From the NCBI GenBank assembly GCA_015178975.1, contig WHVD01000184.1, positions 90,030 to 154,029 on the forward strand: a stretch of DNA of 64,000 bases. The letters are read 5' to 3'. This DNA is from Hysterangium stoloniferum (Eukaryota; Basidiomycota; Agaricomycetes; Hysterangiales; Hysterangiaceae). Position numbers and translations under genes: made by a program. Positions 1,636 to 18,539 of the stretch are shown in pieces; position 1 is the first letter of the stretch, and every line of letters begins with the position of its first letter. The notes below the pieces were generated by a model. The model worked only from the letters and a program-made list of their open reading frames with translations, was not told the DNA's origin and searched no databases.

Positions 1636-4600
1636 TCAATTTCCTAATCCCATCATAAATCTGAACTTTTCCACCTTTGGTTTTGGTAATGCTTTGGTTA
1701 AGATATCTGCCGGCATTTCATCTGTTTGTAGATAGATAGGGTTGATTGATTCCTTTTCTACCATGTCACGTAACCAGTAGTAGCATAGGTCCAGATGTTT
1801 CATTCATCCATGATGTTCTGGATTCTTGGCTACAGTTAGTGCTGACTGGTTGTCAATGAAGAGTTTTGATGGACATGGTGCTTTGTATCCCAATTCCTTT
1901 AACAGGTTCTGCATCCAACAGATCTCCTTCCCTGCTGCAACTGCAGCAACATATTCAGCTTCTGTGGTGGATAGTGTCACAATTGGTTGTAGTTTGCTGC
2001 TCCAACATACTGCTCCTGATCCCACTTTGATTATGTACCCTGTTGTTGATTTTCCACTGTCCTTGTCTCCACCATAACTAGCATCACTGAAGCCAACGAA
2101 TAGATCTGTATTTAATGGATCAGGACCATATGTGAGTTTCATATCCATAGTCCCCTTCAAATATCGGAATAGATGCTTGACAGCCTTCCAATGTGCTATA
2201 CCAGGGTTTGAATTAAACCGAGCCAATACTCCTGCAGTGTATGCAATGTCGGGACGGGTGGTAGTGGCCAAGTACATCATGGACCCAACTGCATTAATGT
2301 AGGGAATGTCACACATTTCATTCTGTTCCTCCATGGTTTTGGGTGACTGATCTGATGATAGTTTTGCCCCTGGATCCATGGGTGTACCCACTGTATGACA
2401 ATTTGACATCCCAAATTCCTGTAATTTGTTCAAGATGTACTGGTATTGTGATAGAGATATAGTCCACTTTTCTCGATCTCGTGTGATTTCAATGCCTAAT
2501 AGGAAAGATGTAGGTCCTAGATCCCTGAGTTTGAAATGTGTAGCTAATTCAGCTACAAAATCATCCAGGACTTTTTCAGATGGTCCTGCAAGGGTGATGT
2601 CATCTACAAATATGGGAACAATGACTTGGATTCCATCTCGTTGATAGATATAGACCAATGGATCAGAATAAATCCACTTGAAGTCCATTTTCTCTAGTAC
2701 ACTCCGCAGGTGTTTGCTCCAGAGATTGCTTGCCTGCTTGAGTCCATAGAGCAACTTGTCTAGTCTACATGCTACATCTGATCCTCCTTGGTGAAATCCT
2801 TCTGGCTGGACCATGTATATTTCTGCATCAATATCACTGTTGATGAATGCATGTGATATGTCAACTGATCGGAGGTGAAGGCCTTCTGCTGCAGCCAGTG
2901 CTAATACTAGACGAATAGTAGCATGGCGCATTGTTGGGGCAAAAATCTCTGTATAGTCAAATCCTGGTCTCTGGTTGTATCCTTTAGCAACCAATCGTGC
3001 CTTAAACCGTTCTATTGATCCATCTGCCTTTCGTTTCACTTTGAAAACCCATTTTGATCCTATAGCCTTTTTTCCTGGTGGTAGTTTCATTATGGTCCAA
3101 GTTCCATTGCTCATGTGTGTGTTCATTTCCTCCAAGGCTGCCTCTCTCCATTGTCTTGCCTGTGGACCATTCATTGCCTCTGTAAATGTCCTTGGTTCAG
3201 AAATAATTGACACATGTGCCTCCTCCAATTCCACTTCATTGGTACTGTCAGAAGTGGTAGGATTGGGTTCCCAGGTTTTCCACCATTCATTAGGAGGTTT
3301 TTTGTTGCGCAAAGGTTTTTGAATAGCAATTGGTCTGTTATCTTCCTCCTCCTCTTCCTCCTCCTCATTATCTGTGATCTGGGGGGATGGTGTGATAACA
3401 TTGTCTTCAGATTCAGGTACAGGGAATTCATGATCCTCCACAGGGGCAGTTGGTAATTCACTTGGTGGATTATCATCTTCTTCAACAACTGGACCCCCTG
3501 GGATATAATCCCTAGTACTTGATTCATCCTTCCCACCAGTATCTGGAACTTGTGGTGGTTGGTGTTTCCATGTGTATCGTTCATCAAATTCAGCTCATTC
3601 ACTATCCTTCTTGTCAATGGGTTGTAGAATAACCATCCCTTATACCCTTCAGGATACCCAATGAAGATGCATTTCTCCATGTGAGATCCCAGGCTTGATT
3701 GTTTATCCTTTTGAATGTGGACATATGCAATGCATCCCCAAACTCTGATGTGACTGATATTTGGTTTCCTTTTGTGCCAAATTTCATATGGGGTTTTGTC
3801 CTTTGAGGCAGATGATGGGCAGTGGTTCCAGATGTGTACAAATGCAGCCAGGCAGTACTCCCAGAATTTCTTGGGTAGTTCAGACTCTGTTAGCATGGTT
3901 GTAATCCCTTCTGCTAATGTTCGGTTTGCACGCTCTGCCATTCCATTTTGCTGAGGTCTATTACAGACTGTATGCTGACGCAAGATACCGTGTTTATCGG
4001 TGAATTCAATGAATGCCCTTGACATGTATTCTCCACCCTTGTCATCCCTAAGTTTCTTTATTTTCCATCCAAGGAGGTTTTCTGCAAATGCTTTGTACTG
4101 TTTGAATGCCCAGAAAACACCACTTTTGGACTTGATTGGGATGACATAATAGAATCTTGAAGCCTCATCAATGAATGTAACCCAATAGTAACATCCAGAT
4201 CGGGATCTTGTGCCAATATAATGTACATCTGTATGTACCAACTCCAAAGGTTCATTGCAGTGATGTTCTGAGGGGGGAAATGGGTTAGCATGCATCTTTC
4301 TTGCAAGACATGGTTCACAAATTGGATCTGGTTTAGCCTTTGAATTAAGTACCAATCCTTTAACCATGTTTCTTTTCATTAGATTCTTTATCCCCTCATA
4401 GTGGTGATGTCCCAATCTTCTATGCCACAGAGACAGATCTAGAGGTAAAGTAGAGGACATGTGCACATTCTCCATTTTATTTATAATAGTCTTGCCATCC
4501 AAGTAGCCCACATTTCGATCAGTGATTGATGCAGTGAATAAAAGATTCCCATGGCGATTAAATCTTATGGTTTTGGATGAAATGTGTACATCAAATTCTT

Positions 4601-5057
4601 TATAACGTGTGAGGTATAGGACAGCAAGAAGATTATTATGTAAAGCTGGAACATGTAATACTTTTGTGAATTCAACCTCCCGGCTAACTCTTCCATCAAT
4701 GATTGGTTGAAAAATAACACTCCCAACACCTTCAGAATATACAATTCTATTGTCTGCAAGTTTTATTGGGGTTCTGTATGGGGTATAGGTGTGGAACCAG
4801 TTGTAATGGGGTGTCATATGTGATGTGGCCCCTGTGTCTGTATTCCAATCGTAGATATTAGCTGAGGTTGCACATGCATCATGTTGTGAAAAGACACTTG
4901 CTTTTCCTGTCTGTTCCTCTACTTCCTCTATTTTTGCCTCTTCCATCTTGTTAGCACTGTTGCGTGACTGCCAGTATTGCTGTATCTTTTCTTTATTCCT
5001 TGGCTTTGGACAGTCATAGCTGAGGTGCCCTTCCTTGTCACAATTATAGCAAACCAT
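1636..5057 (-). pseudogene. Copia-1 Pol (zinc knuckle, protease, integrase, RT, RNase H), frameshifted
   Basis: Domains in order: CCHC knuckle CYNCDKEGHLSYDC at the start; aspartic protease motif DTGATSH; GAG-pre-integrase HRRLGHHH; integrase core with HTDVHYIG and the later NGMAERANRTL; then after a frameshift near 3590 the RT with FVDD catalytic motif and RNase H with SDASYGG and STTEAEY. A TGA at 1804-1806 sits where Copia proteins carry Arg after NPEHHG, so CGA to TGA is the likely cause; reading on gives a normal C-terminus ending ADILTKALPKPK...MMGLGN at 1636. The protein would make, process and integrate the retrotransposon DNA; it can no longer be made as one chain. Confidence 0.93.
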
Positions 5058-5063
5058 CTTTTT

Positions 5064-5706
5064 TCAATGCTTGATGGGTGCTTTGGCCCTATTAACCATT
5101 TCTCCACGGTGATTGCGATTTAGTTCCTCACTTCTAAATGCCTGGAGAATGGTATTCTTGTCCAACTTCTCCATGAGTAATAATGATGAGGAGAGGTGTG
5201 CATATTCCTCAGGAAGAGCCCGGATGAGTGCCATGCATTGTAATTCTTCATCCAACTTTTCAATTGTGAAGTCCTTTGGGCGCAGGTTTTGAATAGTCCC
5301 CATTGCTTTATCAATTCTGACACCCAAATCCATCAGACTCCTTTTCATCCTTTTGGATTGAGAATAGGTCATCATAGGCATTGAAGCGGGCTCCTGGTTT
5401 TTGTTGTAAGTGTGTCCTTTCCAACAAGTCCCACATTTTGATTAGATCTTCTTCAAATCCATGGAAATGCACCCTCTGATCATTTTCCACCATAAGATAT
5501 ATCTCTGCAGCTGCTTTCTCTGCCTTTGTTTCCCACTTCTCAATGTTATCACTGCCATTTACTGGCTTGATTTCTTTTCCACAAACAAGCTTCCAATAAC
5601 CCAACTTCATCAACCATGCCTTCATTTCTCCAGACCATTCTGGATAATTTTGGTTGTTTAATGGTTTGAATTTTGGTAATGATTCTGAGGATGTCATGTT
5701 TGACAC
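5064..5706 (-). pseudogene. Copia-1 Gag (UBN2/DUF4219-like), frameshifted
   Basis: Starts MSNMTSSESLPKFKPLNNQN at 5706, with the typical Copia Gag N-terminal YPEWSGEMKAWL motif, then shifts frame near 5350 and continues into the part ending LNRNHRGEMVNRAKAPIKH, with a stop just before the Pol knuckle. In an intact relative Gag and Pol would be one reading frame. Confidence 0.88.
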
Positions 5707-5849
5707 AGTAGGGAAATTTTCGAAAATCCAAAAATTAAGGTTTCTTGCTTATGCAAGCAAAAGTGACAGGCTCAACCAAACACAAAAGTTGGTTTGTTAT
5801 GCCTCCAAATTCAAGTACTTATAGTAATGTGTATTATAATTAGAAGCTG

Positions 5850-6389: not shown

Positions 6390-6956
6390 CTGACAGAAAC
6401 AAGTCCTACCTGCGCACTTCAATCGCCCGAAGAGTGGCTAAACAAAGCTGACAGCATTGGAAGCACGACTCATTCTTGATGGCAGCATAACTGATGCAGC
6501 AGAGGGAGTGCCTGGCGAAATTTGGATCAGTGGTCCACATGTCATGAAGGTACGGCCCTTTCGTCTTGTTCTATTCATGGTGCTGGTGTTCGGGACCCCT
6601 TCATCTATGACTAATTCTCAAATTTGTGTGTAGGGCTATTTGAAGTAATCCATCTGCAACAACAGACGCCATCACTCCTGATGGCTGGTTCAAAACGGGA
6701 GATATCGCTGTAGTAGACAGGGATGGACATTTCTTTGTCATTGACTGAAAAAAAGAATTAATTAAATACAAGGTAAATCAGCAATTTCTTATAATACTGT
6801 AATGGATTGGAATAAAATGTCTTGTACAGGGATTCCAAGGCAGGCTCATCCGACTGCATAATATCCTGATTTTACTGATCCTCCATGCACAGTCCCTCCT
6901 GTGGATCTAGAAGGTGTCCTCCTTACATACCCAAATGTTATCGATGCTCATTGGCA
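6390..6956 (+). pseudogene. Acyl-CoA ligase (4-coumarate-CoA ligase-like) pseudogene, part 1
   Basis: Reads GVPGEIWISGPHVMK, then after an intron GYLK, DGWFKTGDIAVVDRDGHFF and VID*KKELIKYK. These are the hallmark C-terminal motifs of AMP-forming acyl-CoA synthetases (ANL superfamily; the lost R in the D-R-K-K-E-L-I-K motif is the usual substrate-binding hinge). Two lesions: one extra base after GYLK, and TGA at 6746-6748 replacing the Arg codon (CGA to TGA). A following exon reads VDLEGVLLTYPNVIDAHW and is cut by the KDZ transposon at 6957. The N-terminal half is missing; the left neighbour is segmental duplication. It continues at 18540. Confidence 0.85.
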
Positions 6957-7461
6957 CACCTGTGACTCCCACAAATCACCTCCAATTAGAGGTGTATTCA
7001 CATGCCTAATACACCTCTAAGTTGAAGGGTTTCAGCTAAATCTTCTGTTCTGCCAATAAAAGCTGATTAATTCTTGAGGTGACTCCAAATTTTAAAACCA
7101 TCACCAAACCATTGCTGGATTATAGCACCATGTTCAGCAATGTTGCCACCCAACATCTGGTCGCAACTTCAGCATCAATCATCTGCCCCCGCATCATTGC
7201 CAAATAAGGTTGCCCGTCATCACCATCAACAACAAGCTCGACACACTTTCTTTAACAATTCAATTTTTAATATAAATTTTGAAAAAAAATTATAGACAAT
7301 TCTTGCAGAATATACCTACATACATAAGCCTTCAATATAAGAATAAAGTAAGCTGTATGAGCTGAGCATGACTTTAGTGCCAAATATGGTTGCTCGTCAT
7401 CGTCATCAATGATGAGCTGGAGACCTTGTTCTCAGCATGTCAATTCTTAGAGTAAATGCTT
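6957..7461 (+). repeat. KDZ transposon left terminal inverted repeat (~505 bp)
   Basis: Matches, in reverse complement, 18439-18531 plus 16772-17188. Identity is high throughout, with many differences being CpG against TpG or CpA (for example GCCGATAAAAG right, GCCAATAAAAG left). Long TIRs of this kind are the substrate of the transposase. Confidence 0.92.
6986..7020. repeat. Subterminal 13-bp hairpin in left TIR
   Basis: TTAGAGGTGTATT (6986-6998) and its exact complement AATACACCTCTAA (7008-7020) around a 9-base loop. The same hairpin occurs in the right TIR at 18468-18502. A possible transposase-binding or end-folding structure; that role is inference. Confidence 0.8.
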
Positions 7462-7518
7462 GTAAACAGTGTATTTCATAGAATAAATGTAAAAGGAACA
7501 AAATGTGAGCTACTCCGA

Positions 7519-10500
7519 CTAGTCTTCAGAAACTGTTAATAAAGACATGATATTCTGAATGAGTTCATACTCTGCCTCCTCCTCTGCCTCCTCCTCCTCT
7601 GCTTCTTCCTGCTCTGTCAGAGTATTGTTGAATTGCTCCTCATTACCAGTGGAAGCATCTCCATCACCAGTGCCATTGCCTTCTCCAGCTGGTTCTGTCA
7701 ACTTCCACACTCTTGCACTCTCCCCCTCCCCATCCTGGATACTTGTTCCTGGCACAATGCTACCACTAAACCCTGCAAGACTGGCAATATCATGCAATCG
7801 GCACTTGTGATATGATGTGAAGTGCCCACGAACCATGCTATGCAACCATATTTGATGAGCAATTCGAAGATCCGATAATCGAGTATTTTTCTCGGCATTG
7901 TAAAGGTAGTGCATTTCATCATAGATGTATGTAGCAACACGTCGGACTTCAATGTTGAGCTGATTGATCTCTTCATAGGCACATTGGATCTTGAAGTATA
8001 GGTCCATGGCGAGCCTTCCAGCTGGTGTTGCCCACAGTTTATGTGAGATATCTTGACGAGCATCACTGTTAAGAGCAGAAACTGCAGATGGTATGAGTAT
8101 ATTTTGACAGGGGCGTAAATGAGGTTTGATCGCCATGAAGGTATACGTCAATGTCGGGTTCCGAAGGTTGCCAAAATGATGACTTGATCAATAACTTGGA
8201 ACATCGATAGACAGTAGTATTCTCGGGGTCCGTCGGTTTGCGACATGGGTTACGACACGGTCATAACAATCATGAAGAAGGTCAAAATCAGCAAGAAAGG
8301 CATATTCGACAACTTCTTTCCATTCAAGTTGACGCCGAGGGATGGGAAGCCCTTTTGCTGCAGTGTTGTATCGGCCTAGTGCAGTTTGAATGGCCTGTGA
8401 GTGGCTCTGAAGTGCCTTTGCTATGTGCTTTCGTAGCTTATACCCTGTAATATCTCCTTGTCAATACTATTTGAGATGTTTTACATTATAGTATTTACCT
8501 GTCTGCAACATATTCAGTTTTGTGAGTTCAAACATCTGTGCCACAATTAATCCCTCAAGCTGATCGAGAGCTTGTTGGTACATGCGCATGGCTACCAGTT
8601 TACTGGTATTTACCCACTCTGCACTCCCAGGTTCCCAGCATTTAGCAACTACAAGCTTCTTCTCAAGGTCTTGCACAATTTTCAAATCTTTCTCGTACCC
8701 TTCTAAGAGATGTCGCCAGGTGGTCTCAAGAGATATTGTATTATCCCTCATGCTTGTAGAGATAGTTATAGGTGTTGCCTGTATCCAAGCAGCTCGGACA
8801 TTATCAAGATTCTTTCTAATTAATTGTTGGTTAAAACAATAAATAAAGTTACAGAGAACTTGGAACTTACTCGCTCACTCGAAGATTGATTAACTTCTGG
8901 TAGTACTCCATCTCCAGTGTTTCCATAATTGGCTCCTTTGATAACCCTTCGAGATAAATCTTTTCCTCCTCACGCCATTCCTCAAAAACATTAAAATTGG
9001 AAATCTGGAGATCCTGCATTGCTTGGGATAGGGCAGTGGGGCCACTATTAATGATATCAAGTGCTTGCTTATAGTTATTATATAAAAATGTTGCTACACA
9101 AATTTGAATGACTTAGTTTTGGTGTCGAAAAATTATAATTGTCACTCACTGAGATTCTGGTAAACCTCCATGTCATCATTATATTTGAAATATGTTGTGA
9201 TGGCTTGCATGCGATGAAATGCACTTGCATAATGGACAGCTCAAGCGACATCATTTGATTTGAAAATGCTTGTTCACAGCCTTCCAGATCTTCAAGCCCA
9301 AGACCCTTTGTATATGTGGCAAGATGGACAAATTGACAAAGCCGTCGATGTACATGACCATGAAACCCACCAATAAGAGATGTATAGTTGAGTTCTTTTG
9401 CTTGAGGTCCAAGGGGACTCTGGGCAAGTGTAGTTTTGAATTGGCAACCAATATCAAACCTGCCACCCAAATCCTTGCCAAAAACCTGAAGTAGTTTTGC
9501 AACCACAGCTGATGGGTATTTCACCCTGAAATATATGGGTAACATCGTGAATCACAATTAAAAGGAACTTACAATTCTCCACTCTGAACCATGTCCGCTA
9601 TTACCAAGGAGAAACCATGTCAACACAGTGCAAGAAATACCCCTGTCTCATCAAAGATAGCCCACATACGCTTTGTAATATCATCCTTCATGTTTTTCCA
9701 TCTGTCTGCACATGGGTTGTAGTCCACATCATGCTGTAAAATTTCAATAAGTGATTTTTGTATAGCTTATCAATGTCTTAGAATTCTCACCCTATCTGCA
9801 TTAAATGCCATGAGATTCTGTAGTGGTTTATGAGCCCACTTATCGACTTCTTCTCTAGTTAGGTAAAAGTCATCATGGACTTTTCTGGAGTCAGTGTGTT
9901 CAGAGCTACTACCAGGCATACCATCTTCATCCATTACCCGTCGTCGTATTCGCTTGAGAGAATCATTTCCATCCATTGTGAATAGAAGTGAAAATAATAA
10001 TGGTTTTTCATCCTTGAGTTTGTAGGTGCAAGCAGGGGAAGCATGACGAAGTCGCCAGTCTGGTAAATCACGATTGAGTGAAGTTTGTACAATCTTGTCA
10101 GTTGCATGACATATGCTGAGGTATAAATCAAATGTAATTGAGAATTGACGAGATAAGTAGCAGTGAAATTGGACCTACAATAAATGATTCAGAATTATAT
10201 GTATAATATATGAATGAAGACTAACACCATGCATGTCACAGAGAGTTTTTACCCATGCTTGGATGGAGAGACGTGGTGACCGTAGATGAGTGACTCGATA
10301 AAGCTCCAGAGCTTTTATTGTGATACAGACTGATGGGGATAGAGGTGCTGATGGCATAAGACCTTGTCGAACAAGAGCAGATATAATAAAAGAATCTGTC
10401 AGTAGAATAGTGGGTTTCGCATCATAAGCAGCTGGTGAATCTCATCAGCAATGCCAAAATCAGGTATGAGATACATATAGACTCACTGAATAAATCAACA

Positions 10501-11165
10501 ACATGAATCAAGTAAACACTGGAATCAGCTGTCAGAGGCAGATCTGGTACTGGGTCATCCTGATCCACATATTTCAAGCACCAGTCCATGTATGCATCAG
10601 TAAGTGCCTCCATCCATCCCTCAAATGCTGCTGTACATCGTTCAGTTCGATCCTGACGTGTTCTGTAATCAACTCGGCACACATGACTGGATATGGTTAG
10701 CCTATGGCAGTTTTTAGATAAGGGATTACATACAATTTTCTTCACTTATCCTTAAGATCAGTGAGAGCAGATAGCTCTCCACCTGCATGGCTGACCTCCA
10801 AGCAATGCGAGCCATATAATACCTCATCCAACATGATCCAATCATCAGAATCTTGTCCCATCTCATCAGGGAGTTCCCGAAGTGCTTGGAAAGACCGATG
10901 TTCATCCGGAGTCATTTCTACAAATAGGGGTAAGCTAACAATATATGTGGCAATTCTTAAAAGATACATCGCACCAGCTATTCTTTCATTCTGCTTTTGA
11001 ATAGTGTCTAATTGGTGTGCCCAGACACCCTGAGACCCAAGAAGTTCCCTGACTGGATGAGGTAGACGTCAACCAGATTCATCCCAGGTAGTCCTGGTGT
11101 GTCGTATGCGCCTCAAAGTAGTTCTACTTGTATTTTGTGATCTGTTAGAGAGTGCACACATGCAA
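7519..11165 (-). pseudogene. KDZ transposase (Kyakuja-Dileera-Zisupton family), inactivated
   Basis: A multi-exon transposase read from about 11165 down to 7519. N-terminal part: LPHPVRELLGSQGVWAHQL and ALRELPDEMGQDSDDW. Middle: ALELYRVTHLRSPRLSIQAW, then MDGNDSLKR. Core: ADRWKNM, a segment ending ADMVQSGE, then GGRFDIGCQF, GGFHGHVHRRLCQ and LEDLEGCEQ, the conserved acidic and His positions of the family. C-terminal part: LDQLEGLIVAQMFELTKLN, EVVEYAFLADFDLLHD, MDLYFKIQCAYEEINQLNIE and an acidic tail. Lesions: TGA at 11069-11071, a 202-bp LTR insertion at 8067, and exons in several frames. I recognise the family by these motifs; exact exon edges were not all resolved. Confidence 0.88.
8067..8268 (-). 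mobile_element. Internally deleted 202-bp LTR inside the transposase gene
   Basis: On the minus strand it starts TGTTATGACCGTGTCGTAAC and ends TTTCTGCTCTTAACA, the same two ends as the 1,245-bp LTR at 17189-18433, but the middle is missing. Flanks are ATCAC (8062-8066) and ATCAT (8269-8273), a 5-bp target duplication with one transition. Deleting the insert and one repeat restores the transposase frame FDLLHDARQDIS. Confidence 0.88.
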
Positions 11166-12768
11166 GCTTAAGCACGAGTTGTGCTGTCACATGTGACATG
11201 TCCACTTTGTCATGCACCATACTACCACCACTACAACAACAATAACTGTGAGTCCTTCTGTAGCTCATGTCCCACAGCCCTCTTCCTAAGGCCCAGATCC
11301 AAATACTAATGTTCTACGGTTGAAGGTCAGTCATTCTTATATATATATATCATTCTGGACCTATCCCCTATTTCATTTTATCAGGCATCTTCCCTTGATG
11401 AGGCAACACAATCTGGCGTGACTGGTGGATGCATGACATGGTCAAAGCATACTCTGGAATGAATGCCACTTTAGCAGCACCCCTGGGTCATATCAATGTA
11501 CATATTCGAGGCGGTTCAGCATTGCTCCTACACAATAAGCCAGGATATACAATTGAGGAAACACGGAGTGGCCCATACACACTCCTTGTATCATTGTCGA
11601 GCAGTGGATCAGCCATGTGATATTTACAATATGTATGGGGAGTATCTTCAACTGCAGTAACAACCACTAAGGCTGACTCTTCGTTTTCCATCTTCACCGA
11701 AGGACAGTTCTATTTATGATGACCTTTTACTAACAATGTGCTTTCAATAGGCACGACGATGACGGTGCGTACCTTTGATAGGCGTGACTTTCAATTTCGA
11801 TTTGTGTGCTCTCGTTAGGCACTGCAACGGTACGAGCAATGGTGCACGTTTTTGATAGGCGTGACTTTTGATGTCGAACTCGGTGTGCTTTCAATAGGTG
11901 GGAAGGCGACAATGCACACTTTCAACAGGCGCGACTTTTGATGTCAAATTTGGTGTGCTTTCAATAGGCACGGCGGCGGTGTGAGCGACAGTGTGCATTT
12001 TCGATAGGCACGGCTTTTGATGTCGAATTCAGCCTCGATGGGGCAGAAGAAGTGTTTTATGCGCTTGTGTTGGGATTTCACAAGCGAGGACCCAAGACCG
12101 TACAGAGCCAACTTGGAACTGTATCTAGTTACAAGCGCATGACATGTAATTTACATGTAGATACGTATAAACTAATGTCTCACCATTGCCTCACCATGAC
12201 ACGAGTGCAACGTCGATTCGATGACACTCCCACATAACAATCCATAATATCCAATAATTGCTCCTACACGATAAGCCAGGATATGCAATTGAGGAAACAC
12301 GGAGTGGCCCATACACACTCCTTGTACCATTGTCGAGCAATGGATCAGCCATGTGATATTTACAATATGTAGATAGATATGCAATGTTCAGCTTCGCCAC
12401 CTAACCTTTGTATGATTGAAATATGTTAGCATGGAAGATTGACTGAAATATTCTTAAAGGTTTATCAGTAAGAATAGCCCCATTTCATATGTGCAGTGCC
12501 AACCTAGTTTTCTAGTCTACATTTTCCTAAATTACGGACTGTATGTGATATTTACAATATGTATGAGGAGTATCTTAGATAGATATGCAATGTTCAGCTT
12601 TGCCACCCAACCTTTGTATGATTGAAATATATAGCATGAAGATTGACTGAAATATTCTCAAAGGTTTATCAGTAAGAATAGCCTGTTTCATGTGTGCAGT
12701 GCAAACCTAGTTTTCTGGTCTACATTTTCATAGATACCAGCAATATACTAACCAATGTCAATTATATT
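11166..12768. repeat. Degenerate direct repeats between transposase and CxxC ORF
   Basis: No gene recognised. Three kinds of repeat are visible: a ~75-bp segment (GAAACACGGAGTGGCCCATA...) at 11555 and 12294; an array of ~70-95-bp units sharing TTTGATAGGCGTGACTTTTG and GTGCTTTCAATAGGC between 11741 and 12030; and a ~160-bp direct duplication (AGATATGCAATGTTCAGCTT...) at 12373 and 12578, identity roughly 90%. They may be slippage products or degraded transposon sequence. Confidence 0.7.
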
Positions 12769-12927
12769 TTAATTGAATATGTACTGTATATATAAGTGTT
12801 TACTAGGCCTTGCATGTAACTGAGACACTTGCCGGCACTCTGAGCATTGCACACGGTGTGATTCCTCTGAGTGGGGCCCTCTGCACTTTCTGCACCGAGC
12901 ATCCTTCACCTTCGACCGTCTAGACAT
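12769..12927 (-). CDS. Small ORF with two CxxC pairs, possibly transposon-encoded
   Basis: Begins MSRRSKVKDARCRKCRGPHS and goes on with VQCSECRQ, so two CxxC pairs about 14 residues apart plus intervening His, a pattern typical of a small zinc-binding fold. A plausible splice donor follows the LHARP residues. It lies upstream of and on the same strand as the transposase, inside the KDZ element, and could be a first exon of the transposase or a separate protein. Function unknown. Confidence 0.35.
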   Translation of the reverse strand: MSRRSKVKDARCRKCRGPHSEESHRVQCSECRQVSQLHARPSKHLYIQYIFN

Positions 12928-13229
12928 TTGAACATTTTTCGAAAGTGTCTTGCAATAATATATAACCATGTATAGTCTTAGCATTTTGAATGTGCGATAA
13001 AAGTGTAACATAACACAGACTCGAGCTATTACTTTAACAACAATTGGTTATTATTCCTATCTACTATTTTTGGGAACATAATGGAATAGTTGGAGTGGTG
13101 AAATAGGAAGGTCAGTCGACCGACTTGTGCTGAAGGTGTTACGAAAGTGAATGGTAAACCACATTGTTCGAAGAAAACTCTCAAGTTGAATCATCAGTGG
13201 AGCAGTGTTGTTACAGTCCATAAAATCAT

Positions 13230-13690
13230 GTCAGCCTCGCATCTGTCCAAAATCCTGATTCTGCGGCCTCATAATACTGCCCCTTGTTTCTCTGAGATCT
13301 CAATAACGGGCTTACAATGTCTTCACAGTGGACACAGAGAATAACACATTCGTCAGAAACCACCTGGTGTCCACTCTCCATGCTTTGAAGTGGCATGTCG
13401 AGAAGGATTTATTTACCGACATGACGCCCTATGGCGAAAAGAGGTTCATGAACGTCATAGCAACTAAGGATCCTGATGCTCCAAGACGACTGGTGTTGGC
13501 CGCTCATTTTGACAGTAAATATTTTCCTAGCGTGCCACAGAACCAGGTACACCATTTTACTCCGGACTAGGGGAAACTCACTTGGGATGTCAGTTTGTAG
13601 GTGCTACCGATTCGGCCGCACCTTGTGTTATCCTTCTCGACGTGGCCGAGACGTTGAATCAATTATTAGACCAGTGACAAGAAAGGCTAG
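13230..13690 (+). pseudogene. Glutaminyl-peptide cyclotransferase (M28-type) gene fragment carried in the transposon
   Basis: Two exon remnants: NTFVRNHLVSTLHALKWHVE, RRLVLAAHFDSKYFP, then across a ~47-bp GT/AG intron FVGATDSAAPCVILLDVAE. These are the conserved blocks of animal/fungal glutaminyl cyclase, including the Zn-ligand Asp of the GATDSA motif. The enzyme cyclises N-terminal Gln to pyroglutamate in secreted proteins. A TGA at 13675-13677 follows LLDQ, and the C-terminal half is absent. It lies on the strand opposite to the transposase. Confidence 0.8.
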
Positions 13691-14149
13691 AGCAGGCCTC
13701 TGAGTCAACTCACAGCTTATTCAGGAGAGCAGTAGTAGCATGTTGAATTCTCAAAACTTGGGCTCAGTCATGGATTTTTCCAGTGCAGTTTTATTTTTGG
13801 GAGGATGCCTAGCGTCGGAGCTTCCATGGCATCACTTTGAAAATGTTCTAGTACGGTTTGTGTATATTTATCAAATCCCATTGGAATAAGCCATAATTAT
13901 AAGCCATACTCAACTCTAACTTTCTATGTACCTCTAAATTCTGTTCGGCATGGTGGGGTTCTTTGTAAGGCTGTGCTGAGTCCTGTGAATCAAGACCCTG
14001 GACTCTTTAGTAAATGTAAGCATCAGCACATCGCTGCTTGGGTGTACTGTATAGTTCAGGGTCGCAAAGTGACCCTAGATAGTGGTGCGATTGAGAGTGT
14101 GACCTCTTAGTGAAGTTGTCACTCACTAAGAGGTACACAAAGGGGGATT

Positions 14150-14980
14150 TGCAGGTGATGAGTGAGTGTCCAAGGGCCCAGCATTTGGAGCACTGTCAGA
14201 GTTTGGGTTTGTCAACCCATTTCTGTGTCCTCACTGGGCTAGGGGCCCGTGATTGAGGGCTGGGTGGTGGGGTGGCAGCAGCAACAGTGGTGTATGATGT
14301 CACAGTGTTCCCAGCTGCCTCAGGTGCCAGCCAATTTGCAGGAGATTGGTGCTTGAGCCTGCGTGGACTTTGGGCATGCTGGGTGTCAAAGTGTTGTTCA
14401 AGGCGTGTGAGTTGCGTGTGATGGAGTTCCTGATGTCCACCATGGACTTGGACAGAAAATCCATGATAGGGCATGGTATTTGGTCAGGGTTGTATGACTG
14501 GGATGGGGTAGGCTGTGGGGTCTGGGTGACAGGGTAGCTCTCACCCAGAGATCCCAGTGTATCATCAGGGCTTTGGATGTGGTAGGTAAGGTCATGGAAT
14601 TTGGTGATACAGGTGAGGGCATCACTTGTAATCTCATGAGAGCTGTGGAGAGCGCTGTTAAGTGTTTCCACAAACACCTTGATGAGGTTAGAGGCAATCT
14701 GCTCTAGGGATAGCGGTTGGTAGAGGGATTCATCATCCCAATGGGACGCCAGTACCTGAACCTTGGAAATGAGGCTAGGAACAGGGTCAACTGGGGGGCA
14801 GAGGGGGTCAGGGAGAATTTCTGAGCTATCAGGAGACAGGGAGGGGGCCATGCAGGTATGGGGCCATGGTTCGAAGCAGCCTTCAGTCACTGGGGTGGTA
14901 GCAGCCTGTTTTCTGTTGTTAGAGGGATCAAGGGGGTCCTGAGGGGCCTTAGGTCCAGGGTCTTCGAGTGAAGGATCCAT
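14150..14980 (-). pseudogene. Gag-like protein with CCHC zinc knuckle, broken
   Basis: Starts MDPSLEDPGPKAPQDPLDPS, is Pro/Ser-rich, and after a frameshift near 14430 continues to WVDKPKL*QCSKCWALGHS..ITC, a CX2CX4HX4C zinc knuckle. The TGA at 14196-14198 stands where Arg or Lys would be expected. Such knuckle proteins occur as ORF1/Gag of retroelements and in transposon accessory proteins; the exact source is not recognised. It starts head-to-head with the accessory gene to its right. Confidence 0.5.
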
Positions 14981-15194
14981 TGGGGAGGTGATGGAGCCAG
15001 AGTCAGGGTTGAGAGAGAGGCAGCCACAGGAGCAGGTGGTGGGAGCAAGAATAACCCAGCCATGCCACGTGACTACATATAGTTTTTTTCAACAGCTAAC
15101 TCCTCCAGTTGCTACCAGTGCAAGGTCTCCACATTCCTACCTACCTCTTCTGCAGCTTTTAATTCCACTGGCTCCAAATCCCAACAACTTAATA

Positions 15195-16714
15195 ATGTCA
15201 TTGGAAACACCTGTGGTACCCCATGCTGATAGAACTACGTGGGCCAAACGAAACCCAGCTGCTAATGTTCAGGCTTCTCGTGAACCTACACACAAGCTTA
15301 CTGATGCAAAGAAGGCAATGTGCAAGTTGGCAGCTGAGCTGAAAAAAACAGGTCAAGTGGCCCTAAATGCTGCTGTCAGCACCTACTTGCTTGAGCAGAC
15401 AGAAAAGCTCAATGCATTAGCTGCAGTGTACAATGTTAAAGTCAAAAGGATTGAGGATATGGTGAACTCACAGACTCACTACAAAAAATCTCAAGCCCCT
15501 ACACTTCAGAATGCCATTGTGCATTTCCTTGCCAAAAAGGTCAACAGTTGTGAGTTCTTATACAGTATTCATTATTCCATATGTCCTAAATGTCAATGGA
15601 ATACAGACCTACCAGTTGGATATCGAAAGACCCTTGCAGAGCTGAAGGTGATGGCCCAGGATGATCTGGATGTTCAAAGTTTTACGAAGGATGATGAGGA
15701 GAACCTTATCATTGAACTCATTGAATACCGAGCTTTCAAGAAAACTGGTGTTCGTGCGACCAACAAGGTAGCATCACAAGATATTCTTCTTACCTTGGAC
15801 CGGGTTATTAATGAGGTGAGCTATAATAAATGACTACAAGTATTATTGCATACTGATATGAACCTTTTTTTTAGCTTGACTGTTTGGCAGATCGGACTGG
15901 ATTCAGTACATTTATACTTGGTGCTCGCAACAGTGTAAATGATGAGGCCCTGCCCACATTCCATGGATCTGGTGACTCTATGGAATTCTTTTCTGAGGTG
16001 CTAGAGAGAGACCCTTGGGAACTCGCACGGTTATTTGAGCAGTGGCTTTGCAAGAGAGAGAAAAGTATGTACCTGTGATACAATCCAAATCAAATATTAA
16101 CATACAGTACATACTATTGTCAGACATATGTAGTTGAATGTGATACAATTGGGAAGCTTCGTATACAGTCAACTGGAATGATTAGAGCTGGCTTGCGTAT
16201 GGCTTTACATGTTTCTGATACGGCGTATACTCACTTCTGTTCTACTTCAGGCAACATCACAAACATCAAAAGAATTGAAATGAACTATACCAACTACGAA
16301 ACTACAATTGTTCAAGCTCACGGTGTCAAATTGATTGGCTTTTCACTCAACCAGTTTGTGAATCCATCAGAAGTTACCAACATCACAGATATGCAACAGC
16401 TACACAATGCTTTAAGGTCAGGCGAGTGCAAATGGATTCGGCTGTTACAACCAGAGCTTGACATTCATGCCGAGGGCTGCAAAGCATGTCACAAGGATGG
16501 TGAGGTTGTTGGGAAACCTAGGAAGAAAAGATGTGATGCTGGGGTTCTGAGGGGAAAACAAAAACGAGCTGGCATGGATTCAGACAAGGAAAAGCAGGAC
16601 ACACTATCAAAGAAGCAGAGAACAAGTCATTTATTGACTCAGAGCAAGTTGAACACAGGCCTGCAGAGGCAGAAGAAGAGGCCAAAGAGCTGCGAGTTCA
16701 TCAATTTAGATTAA
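15195..16714 (+). CDS. KDZ-transposon accessory protein of unknown function, apparently intact
   Basis: Exons 15195-15815, 15875-16064 and 16134-16714 join in frame through GT/AG introns to 463 residues. A further in-frame 57-bp intron inside exon 1 (GTGAG...ACAG, near 15549) is likely and would give 444. The chosen start is MSLETPVVPHADRTTWAKR; an upstream in-frame ATG at 14988 also exists. N-terminal half is Ala/Lys-rich and helical (LTDAKKAMCKLAAELKKTGQ); C-terminal half has MNYTNYETTIVQAHGVKLIG, ALRSGECKWIRL and VVGKPRKKRCDAG, the last a basic, possibly nuclear segment. From memory of annotated mushroom genomes, similar proteins of no known function accompany large DNA transposons. No stop or frameshift is present, unlike the transposase next door. 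Confidence 0.72.
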
Positions 16715-16771
16715 TCTGATAGCATGGACAACAATGAAGTTGCACTCAGCTCAAATACTATACACTTTTTT

Positions 16772-17188
16772 TAAATATTTACTCTCATAATTGACACTGT
16801 GAGGACAAAATCTCAAGCTCATCATTGATGACGATGATGAGCAACCATATTTGGCGCTAAAGTCATGCTCAGCTCATATAGCTTACTTTATTATTATATT
16901 GAAGGCTTATGTATGTGTGTAGGTATATTCTGCAAGAATTGTCTATAATTTTTTTTCAGAATTTATATTAAAAATTGAATTGTTAAAGAGAGTGTGTCGA
17001 GCTCGTTGTTGATGGCAACGATGGGCAACCTTATTTGGCAATGATGCAGGGGCAGATGATTGATGCCGAAGTTGCGACCAGATGTCGGGTGGCAACATTG
17101 CTGAACATGGTGCTATAATCCAGCAATGGTTTGGTGATGGTTTTAAAATTTGGAGTCACCTCAAGAATTAATCAGCTTTTATCGGCGG
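16772..17188 (-). repeat. KDZ transposon right TIR, inner part
   Basis: Reverse complement of about 7048-7461. It is separated from the outermost 93 bp (18439-18531) by the solo LTR that inserted at the GGCGG site. Confidence 0.92.
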
Positions 17189-18433
17189 TGTTACGACCGT
17201 GTCGTAACCCATGTCGCAAACCGACGGACCCCGAGAATACTACTGTCTATCGATGTTCCAAGTTATTGATCAAGTCATCATTTCGGCAACCTTCGGAACC
17301 CGACACTGACGTATACCTTCATGGCGATCAAACCTCATTTACGCCCCTGTCAAAATATACTCATACCATCTGGTTATGCTTTGATACGTCCCCTTTCATT
17401 ATGATGATCCGTTTTACTCTATGTTTCGCATATGCCCGTATATACTTGTAGCCCGTGGACTATTCCCTTTTCTCGTAATCCCACTCTCGGCTAAATCTCG
17501 GCTTCTGATCTTATCATAACCTTCCGGTTTCTAGTCAAATCTATTTGTCAAATAGTGTTTCCGCTCTTCCCTTAGTTAGTAGTTTCTAGACACCGACAAC
17601 TCATATATAAACCCGCTGTAAATGTAGTTACAAGACAATCAGAATATCAACTTAGAATGTCAACTTAGAATGTCAACTTAGAATGTCAACTTAGAATATT
17701 GACTTAGATTGACTTAGATACCCCTCTAATTTCCGACTCCATTATCTATTCACGACCACCACATTCTGACCCCATCCGATTTACGATTCAACCTACATTT
17801 ACGACTTCAACCTCTAATCCCGACTCTCAGTCTCCGACTCTCGGTCTCCGACTCTCTCAGTCTCCGACTCTCTCAGTCTCCGACTCTCTCAGTCTCCGAC
17901 TCTCTCAGTCTCCGACTCTCTCAGTCTCCGACACTCTCAGGCTCCGACACTCTCGGTCTCCGACACTCTCAGTCTCCAACACTCTCAGTCTCCAACACTC
18001 TTAGTCTCCGACACTCTCAGTCTCCAACTCTCTCAGTCTCCAACTCTCTCAGTCTCCAACTCTCTCAGTCTCCGACTCTTGGTCTCCGACCCTTGGTCTC
18101 TGACCCTTGGTCTCTGACCCTTGGCCTCCGACCCTTGGCCTCCGACCCTTGGTCTCTGACTCTTGGTCCCCGACTCTTGGTCTCCGACCCTTGGTCTCTG
18201 ACTCTTGGTCTCTGACTCTTGGTCTCTGACCCCTCAGCCCAACCCTCGACTTATCCTTCAGTTTCCGATTGGTAGTTCACCGAGAGGTTTACCTGACAGG
18301 ACTAGTTTCCACCCGCCCGAAATTTAAGGACACCTGACGGTAATTTGCGAGGGTGCAGCACATAAGCTGAAGCCAAGTCCTTCTGTTCAATCCCCGTCGG
18401 TCAACTGACATCTGTCAGTTTCTGCTCTTAACA
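17189..18433 (+). mobile_element. Solo LTR (family LTR1), 1,245 bp, expanded by a minisatellite
   Basis: Begins TGTTACGACCGTGTCG and ends TTTCTGCTCTTAACA, flanked by the perfect 5-bp repeat GGCGG (17184-17188 and 18434-18438), inside the right TIR of the KDZ element. Related copies are at 38191-38933 (743 bp) and, deleted, 8067-8268. The extra length comes from a 16-bp repeat described separately. Its CpGs are largely intact, whereas the 38 kb copy has lost them. Confidence 0.93.
17822..18235 (+). repeat. 16-bp minisatellite within solo LTR1
   Basis: About 25 tandem units, first of CTCAGTCTCCGACTCT type, then drifting to CTTGGTCTCTGACC type. The 38 kb LTR copy holds only one or two units at the corresponding place, so expansion happened in this copy or its source. 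Confidence 0.85.
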
Positions 18434-18438
18434 GGCGG

Positions 18439-18531
18439 AACAGAAGATTTAGCTGAAACCCTTCAACTTAGAGGTGTATTAGGCACGTGAATACACCTCT
18501 AATTGGAGGTGATTTGTGGGAGTCACAGGTG
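18439..18531 (-). repeat. KDZ transposon right TIR, outermost 93 bp with hairpin
   Basis: Mirror of 6957-7049, including the 13-bp hairpin arms at 18468-18480 and 18490-18502; the 9-base loop contains CACGTG. Ends GGGAGTCACAGGTG directly against the CATTGGCA target duplication. Confidence 0.92.
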
Positions 18532-18539
18532 CATTGGCA

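Follow-up and report, generated by a model that had tools for sequence, protein, structure and literature searches.

Confirmed ends and a second gene in a decayed KDZ DNA transposon of Hysterangium stoloniferum

A KDZ element and its ends

A 64,000 bp stretch of the Hysterangium stoloniferum genome (hereafter the window; G000:C95:90030-154029 of a 111-Mb genome in 554 contigs, to which the C-numbers used below refer) contains a KDZ (Kyakuja-Dileera-Zisupton) DNA transposon with confirmed ends, a decayed copy carrying nested long terminal repeat (LTR) insertions. The KDZ genes and short GT-AG introns are in keeping with a fungal, probably Agaricomycete, genome. The element is 11,575 bp long (window positions 6957-18531) and is flanked by perfect 8 bp duplications of the sequence CATTGGCA that directly adjoin the termini CACCTGTG...CACAGGTG; the left terminus reads CACCTGTGACTCCCAC, and the reverse complement of this sequence is present at the right terminus. 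A preliminary description of the locus, made from the sequence alone, had placed the outer coordinates correctly to the base, and the perfect duplication it reported is borne out. Without the two nested LTRs and one copy each of their duplications the element would be about 10.1 kb long, by coordinate arithmetic. Its ends and its two genes are as follows.

6949-6956, no strand: left target site duplication, CATTGGCA
6957-7474, plus strand: left terminal inverted repeat, about 518 bp, starting CACCTGTGACTCCCAC
7519-11068, minus strand: KDZ transposase gene, several exons, 5′ end approximate
15195-16714, plus strand: second gene, four exons (about 15195-15549, 15607-15815, 15875-16066 and 16130-16714, plus strand; splice sites read by us)
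16760-17186, minus strand: inner part of the right terminal inverted repeat, about 93% identical to the left arm
18434-18531, minus strand: outer 98 bp of the right terminal inverted repeat, 98% identical to the left arm
18532-18539, no strand: right target site duplication, CATTGGCA

The inverted repeats had previously been put at about 505 bp; they are present, with a length closer to 518 bp and with the right arm in two pieces around a solo LTR. An imperfect palindrome lies at 6974-7032, within the left repeat. The transposase gene is recognized by Pfam PF18758 in three exons, over the cut-off in two (E 1.2e-29 and 4.7e-10) and below it in the third (E 7.9e-05), and a search of the whole genome with this model places two matches over the cut-off at this locus (C95:99284-99553 and C95:99601-100023), in agreement with its earlier identification as a KDZ transposase.

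When the left arm was compared with the whole genome, 11 matches were listed among the best-scoring candidates, and these resolve into five elements, the window copy and four sisters. Two of the sisters have both ends (C517 and C527), and two are truncated (C535 and C113), each keeping one end, that of C113 being short by one base. The window, C517 and C527 copies have ends that are identical to the base, and they lie within three different perfect 8 bp duplications (CATTGGCA, GTCCATGG and CTTCAGTT, respectively), so that the genome search proposed in the preliminary description returned further copies with the same ends rather than different ones. Aligned blocks of the sister copies differ by about 4-9%. 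The C517 copy is inserted within an LTR, and when its flanks are joined minus one duplication they match the window solo LTR across the junction, gap-free over 94 columns. This match supplies a related empty site, and it settles both the ends and the footprint of the element independently of the window.

Other KDZ families in the genome

Four elements belonging to three further KDZ families were examined.

C554:204566-212882 and C90:83752-92274: one family, 131-bp repeats, duplications GTATCAAA, GCCTGTCG
C420:365606-375263: 355-bp repeats, 98.9% alike, duplication ACTGAGGA
C367 element: repeats of at least about 400 bp, the outer part 93% alike, with inner inverted matches, duplication CAATATCC

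All four start with CACCTG, and among the elements examined with both ends, seven of seven have this start and a perfect 8 bp duplication directly outside. The C554 element has a 339-residue open frame with a KDZ domain over nearly the whole of the model (Pfam E 3.6e-65). At C90:83752-83986 there are two left termini 104 bp apart, with the 8 bp duplication at the outer one. A palindrome, CACCTCYWATTAGAGGTG (window 6977-6994), beginning at base 21 of the end, was noticed by eye in the window family and in C420 and is weaker in C367 and C554; it is possibly a binding site.

The second gene

The second gene lies on the strand opposite to the transposase, as first described. Its exons are open in the window, where a small length difference relative to the four sisters shifts the frame of exons 3/4. 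The four-exon structure is found both in the window family and in C420. The core of exon 4 contains invariant N-P, A-L, G, C and W residues in four aligned sequences, and a lysine/arginine-rich tail seen in this exon by eye suggests a nuclear protein. The predicted partner protein has no match above the cut-off in Pfam or NCBIfam, exons 1-3 have no match in the PDB at E 1, and comparison of the exon 4 alignment with viral and prokaryotic collections gave 61 and 39 pattern stretches, respectively, of which none was confirmed. A search of the literature on Zisupton and KDZ elements found no description of such a partner gene, which does not show it to be undescribed.

Related sequences are not confined to the window family. 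Matches in the genome define 28 second-gene loci (34 of the 45 rows of one search were dropped because they covered nothing beyond query residues 1-68, where the query overlaps a dispersed repeat), and KDZ matches define 43 loci from 71 rows. Sixteen of the 28 second-gene loci are within 10 kb of a KDZ match, compared with 0.22 expected by chance, and 18 are within 25 kb. Copies of one family are not mutually independent in these counts; without the five window-family copies the linkage within 10 kb is 12 of 23, and when the query loci C420 and C367 are also left out it is 10 of 21.

Between families the second gene is about 25-45% identical. The exon pieces of C420 are 25, 37 and 35% identical to the window gene; exon 4 is 30% identical in C367 and 29% in C79, with 25-26% in the exon 1-2 part of both; and the C554 match has 43% identity over 61 residues. 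The relative orientation of the two genes varies. The window family and C420 have a divergent pair, and in C79, C176, C367, C512, C554, C90 and C511 both genes are on the same strand. The arrangement with transposase and accessory gene on opposite strands, offered earlier as typical of the family's architecture, therefore holds for the window family and C420 and fails in the seven others.

Decay of the family

There are disabling changes in all five copies of the window family. The window transposase is broken by a stop within the conserved domain, by a frameshift relative to the four sisters and by a nested LTR. In the exon pieces compared, stops number 7 in the transposase and 6 in the second gene of C517, 7 and 4 in C535, 8 and 5 in C113, and 4 and 3 in C527 (read in the window's codons on our exon model; a few could be model errors).

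Replacement and silent differences to the window number 280 and 91 in the transposase and 144 and 54 in the second gene. The corresponding crude overall ratios of replacement to silent rates (dN/dS) are 1.33 and 1.18 (alignments of at least 300 bases with more than 88% identity, gap and stop codons excluded, fixed transition weight), and these are not below those of the controls: 0.85, 0.90 and 1.03 in the three frames of 12800-14200, which includes a captured cyclase fragment, 0.67 and 0.84 in wrong frames of exon 4, and 1.17, 1.12 and 0.71 in reverse frames of exon 1. Taken as a whole, the two genes give no indication of constraint after the copies diverged. Transitions make up 1530 of the 1857 differences, and 1035 of these are at CpG-type sites, as would be expected of methylated, silenced copies.

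The divergence of left and right repeats was considered as a means of dating the insertion and rejected, because the inner arms split before the copies did. This follows from a comparison of same-side inner arms between copies (95.7 and 96.0% alike at the transposase end, 94.6 and 94.4% at the partner end) with the two arms within one copy, which are less alike (93.1 and 93.9%). The outer 98 bp do not have that pattern, being 98.0% alike within the window copy versus 95.9% between the window and C527 (transposase side).

Nested LTRs

Two LTRs are nested within the element.

8067-8268, minus strand: 202-bp LTR nested in the transposase gene, 5 bp duplication ATCAC/ATCAT with one mismatch
17189-18433, plus strand: solo LTR of 1,245 bp within the right inverted repeat, TGTTACG...CTTAACA

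The longer of these has the features of a solo LTR, namely TG...CA ends within TGTTA...TAACA and a 5 bp duplication (GGCGG at 17184-17188 and 18434-18438), and its site is uninterrupted in all four sister copies (C517, C527, C113 and C535). The ends of the 202-bp LTR resemble the solo LTR (184 bp at 98%), and it is missing from the three sisters that retain that place (C517, C113 and C527; C535 is truncated before it). The solo LTR contains a minisatellite with 16- and 14-bp units at 17789-18232, which the 202-bp LTR is too short to contain.

Captured and passenger sequences

Three further segments lie between the transposase and the second gene.

11312-11614, plus strand: 3′ piece captured from a GH31 alpha-glucosidase-like gene, 91-92% identical to two places in C34
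13234-13696, plus strand: captured glutaminyl-peptide cyclotransferase-like fragment, 93% identical to C29:75321-75786
14007-15088, minus strand: open frames judged gag-like by eye, overlapping a dispersed repeat in their 5′ part

The cyclotransferase-like fragment is present in all five copies. Its Pfam Peptidase_M28 matches are weak and below the cut-off; a PDB search with the joined peptide hits glutaminyl-peptide cyclotransferases (2.4e-19), and by eye the C29 sequence extends on both sides like a glutaminyl cyclase. The fragment retains an apparent GT-AG intron, and capture was therefore probably at the DNA level. The segment C170:48434-48915 corresponds to the neighborhood of window 13009-13960 without the cyclase fragment, and a 5-base overlap at the joint suggests a repair-type capture. 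The glucosidase piece matches C34:188836-189137 and C34:183032-183333 and corresponds to the final part of GH31 alpha-glucosidases (PDB E 3.6e-05; Pfam E 0.0055, below the cut-off); it is whole in four of the five copies and partial in C113.

The gag-like frames, in which a possible cysteine/histidine knuckle was seen by eye, are probably an old passenger retroelement fragment. The open frame within them at 14300-15088 (minus strand) was considered as a gene of the element and set aside because the DNA of its 5′ part matches many other places, which points to a passenger repeat without proving it; this frame has a dN/dS of 0.75 and one stop in one of the four sisters.

The host gene at the insertion site

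The sequences flanking the element look like an acyl-CoA ligase (AMP-binding) gene, as had been proposed, with the qualification that this identity rests on below-cut-off Pfam matches of a paralog: of three paralog peptides, two give AMP-binding (E 0.00033) and AMP-binding_C (E 0.0031), and the third has no Pfam match. The paralog provides an empty site at C95:54584-55503, about 41 kb away, whose flanks match those of the element at 89 and 91%, and there is a third related stretch at C95:63597-64228.

The preliminary description also held that removal of the element restores the reading frame. This is not the case, because the flanks bear lesions relative to the paralogous empty site. The paralog has 5 bases more, immediately to the left of the duplicated 8 bases (window 6947-6949); the left flank has in addition lost 20 bp, gained 1 bp and acquired an in-frame stop, and the right flank has lost 5 bp. 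That the 5 missing bases abut the target site could reflect a chance deletion or be what an earlier event at this position left behind. Beside the ligase pseudogene, at 3171-5748 (minus strand), are open frames that by eye resemble a Copia-like gag-pol.

Interpretation

We regard it as very probable that the window contains an old, non-functional insertion of a KDZ cut-and-paste transposon with an inherited partner gene, belonging to a family that is dead in this genome. The transposase would have recognized the CACCTG end together with sequences inside the long inverted repeats, and the element would have been cut out and rejoined elsewhere with an 8 bp stagger, by the kind of cutting chemistry known from DDE transposases. 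The second protein, encoded at the other end of the element, was inherited as a component of the system, and its predicted role is most likely that of a nuclear helper that binds DNA or the transposase. The family then died in this genome, with stops or frameshifts in all five copies and nested LTRs in several, and in the course of its history the element acquired pieces of two host genes.

There are several observations that weigh against parts of this reading. First, at 10 of the 28 second-gene loci no KDZ match lies within 25 kb; the gene can therefore stand by itself, or next to KDZ copies that have decayed too far to be scored. Second, several of the stops are common to multiple sisters, either by descent or by repeated CpG change. 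Third, dN/dS is 0.40-0.48 in three short pieces (two of the transposase, and exon 3 of the second gene), which leaves room for constraint in parts of the genes. Finally, the cysteine clusters expected beside the KDZ domain give weak matches below the cut-off (CxC3, E 0.007; CxC2, E 0.013).

A broader proposal, which is plausible and which we put forward tentatively, is that CACCTG-type fungal KDZ elements are two-gene systems, in which a partner conserved across families and in both orientations would be needed for transposition. There is a possible parallel in Harbinger elements, which are thought to need Myb-like second proteins. The partner gene offers a concrete second component of KDZ elements to test.

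Other roles for the second gene have to be weighed. It could serve the evasion of host silencing and not transposition itself, as proposed for TET/JBP genes. Fungal KDZ elements with TET/JBP dioxygenases are indeed known (PMC12730594), and the tail of exon 4 would be in keeping with a nuclear site of action, but the database searches noted above give no indication of an enzymatic activity, and we consider such a role unlikely. Diverged relatives of the gene beside KDZ elements of other families, in both orientations, point to long inheritance or repeated retention; this makes it quite unlikely that KDZ elements acquired the gene as a passenger without a role in transposition, even though it has decayed like the transposase since the copies split, the element carries other captured host fragments, and some loci lack a KDZ neighbor. 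The view taken in the preliminary description, of an intact and recently active reference element interrupting a working ligase gene, agrees with the perfect duplication and the closely matching outer repeats but is highly improbable given the broken transposase, the divergence among sisters with most of its transitions at CpG-type sites, and the further lesions in the ligase flanks.

Comparison with known KDZ elements

Complete KDZ elements were said in the preliminary description to be seldom documented. KDZ elements make up a large fungal group. Not many complete ones are in print, but such elements have already been published (PMC12810828, PMC12730594), and because these include complete KDZ elements with inverted repeats and 8 bp duplications (PMC12810828), the reference value of the present one is modest. 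Of the three KDZ branches, Zisupton alone was well characterized before (PMC12730594), and the work on Marasmius oreades, in the portions available, names Dileera or Kyakuja elements without giving their ends (PMC9674265, PMC8290104). The newer points here are the partner gene and the shared CACCTG terminus. With the exact ends of four families in hand, complete elements can be found by the end pattern together with the duplication test. The cyclase and glucosidase fragments indicate that KDZ elements are able to carry pieces of host genes, a capture also reported for fungal Helitrons (PMC4289320).

Duplications of 8 bp are described for Zisupton and for the Dileera element Zisupton-1_PGr (PMC12730594), and the window element resembles Zisupton in its inverted repeats and its 8 bp duplications. 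Kyakuja-1_LB and Kyakuja-2_LB of Laccaria bicolor are reported to make 7 bp duplications, to lack inverted repeats and to carry a TET/JBP gene (PMC12730594). The families described here are likewise fungal KDZ elements with 5′-CA..TG-3′ termini, but have 8 bp duplications and long inverted repeats; a whole-genome search with PF12851 (Tet_JBP) gave no match, the control genomes being equally silent. These families fit KDZ and agree with the published Kyakuja termini only in the 5′-CA..TG.

The KDZ elements of Cryptococcus neoformans are also among the closest known counterparts. KDZ1 is about 11 kb long and has 241-bp repeats, and its new insertions show 8 bp duplications; KDZ2 and KDZ3, similar in design, have 139- and 169-bp repeats and duplications of 4-8 bp (PMC12810828). 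The window element shares with KDZ1-3 a KDZ transposase, a length in the range of about 9-11 kb, long inverted repeats and, with KDZ1, 8 bp duplications. The available portion of the Cryptococcus account describes a transposase with a CxC1 domain and makes no mention of a partner gene (PMC12810828). KDZ1-3 were caught in the act of transposing, whereas the window element is decayed, and it differs from them further in its repeats of about 518 bp, its partner gene and its captured host fragments.

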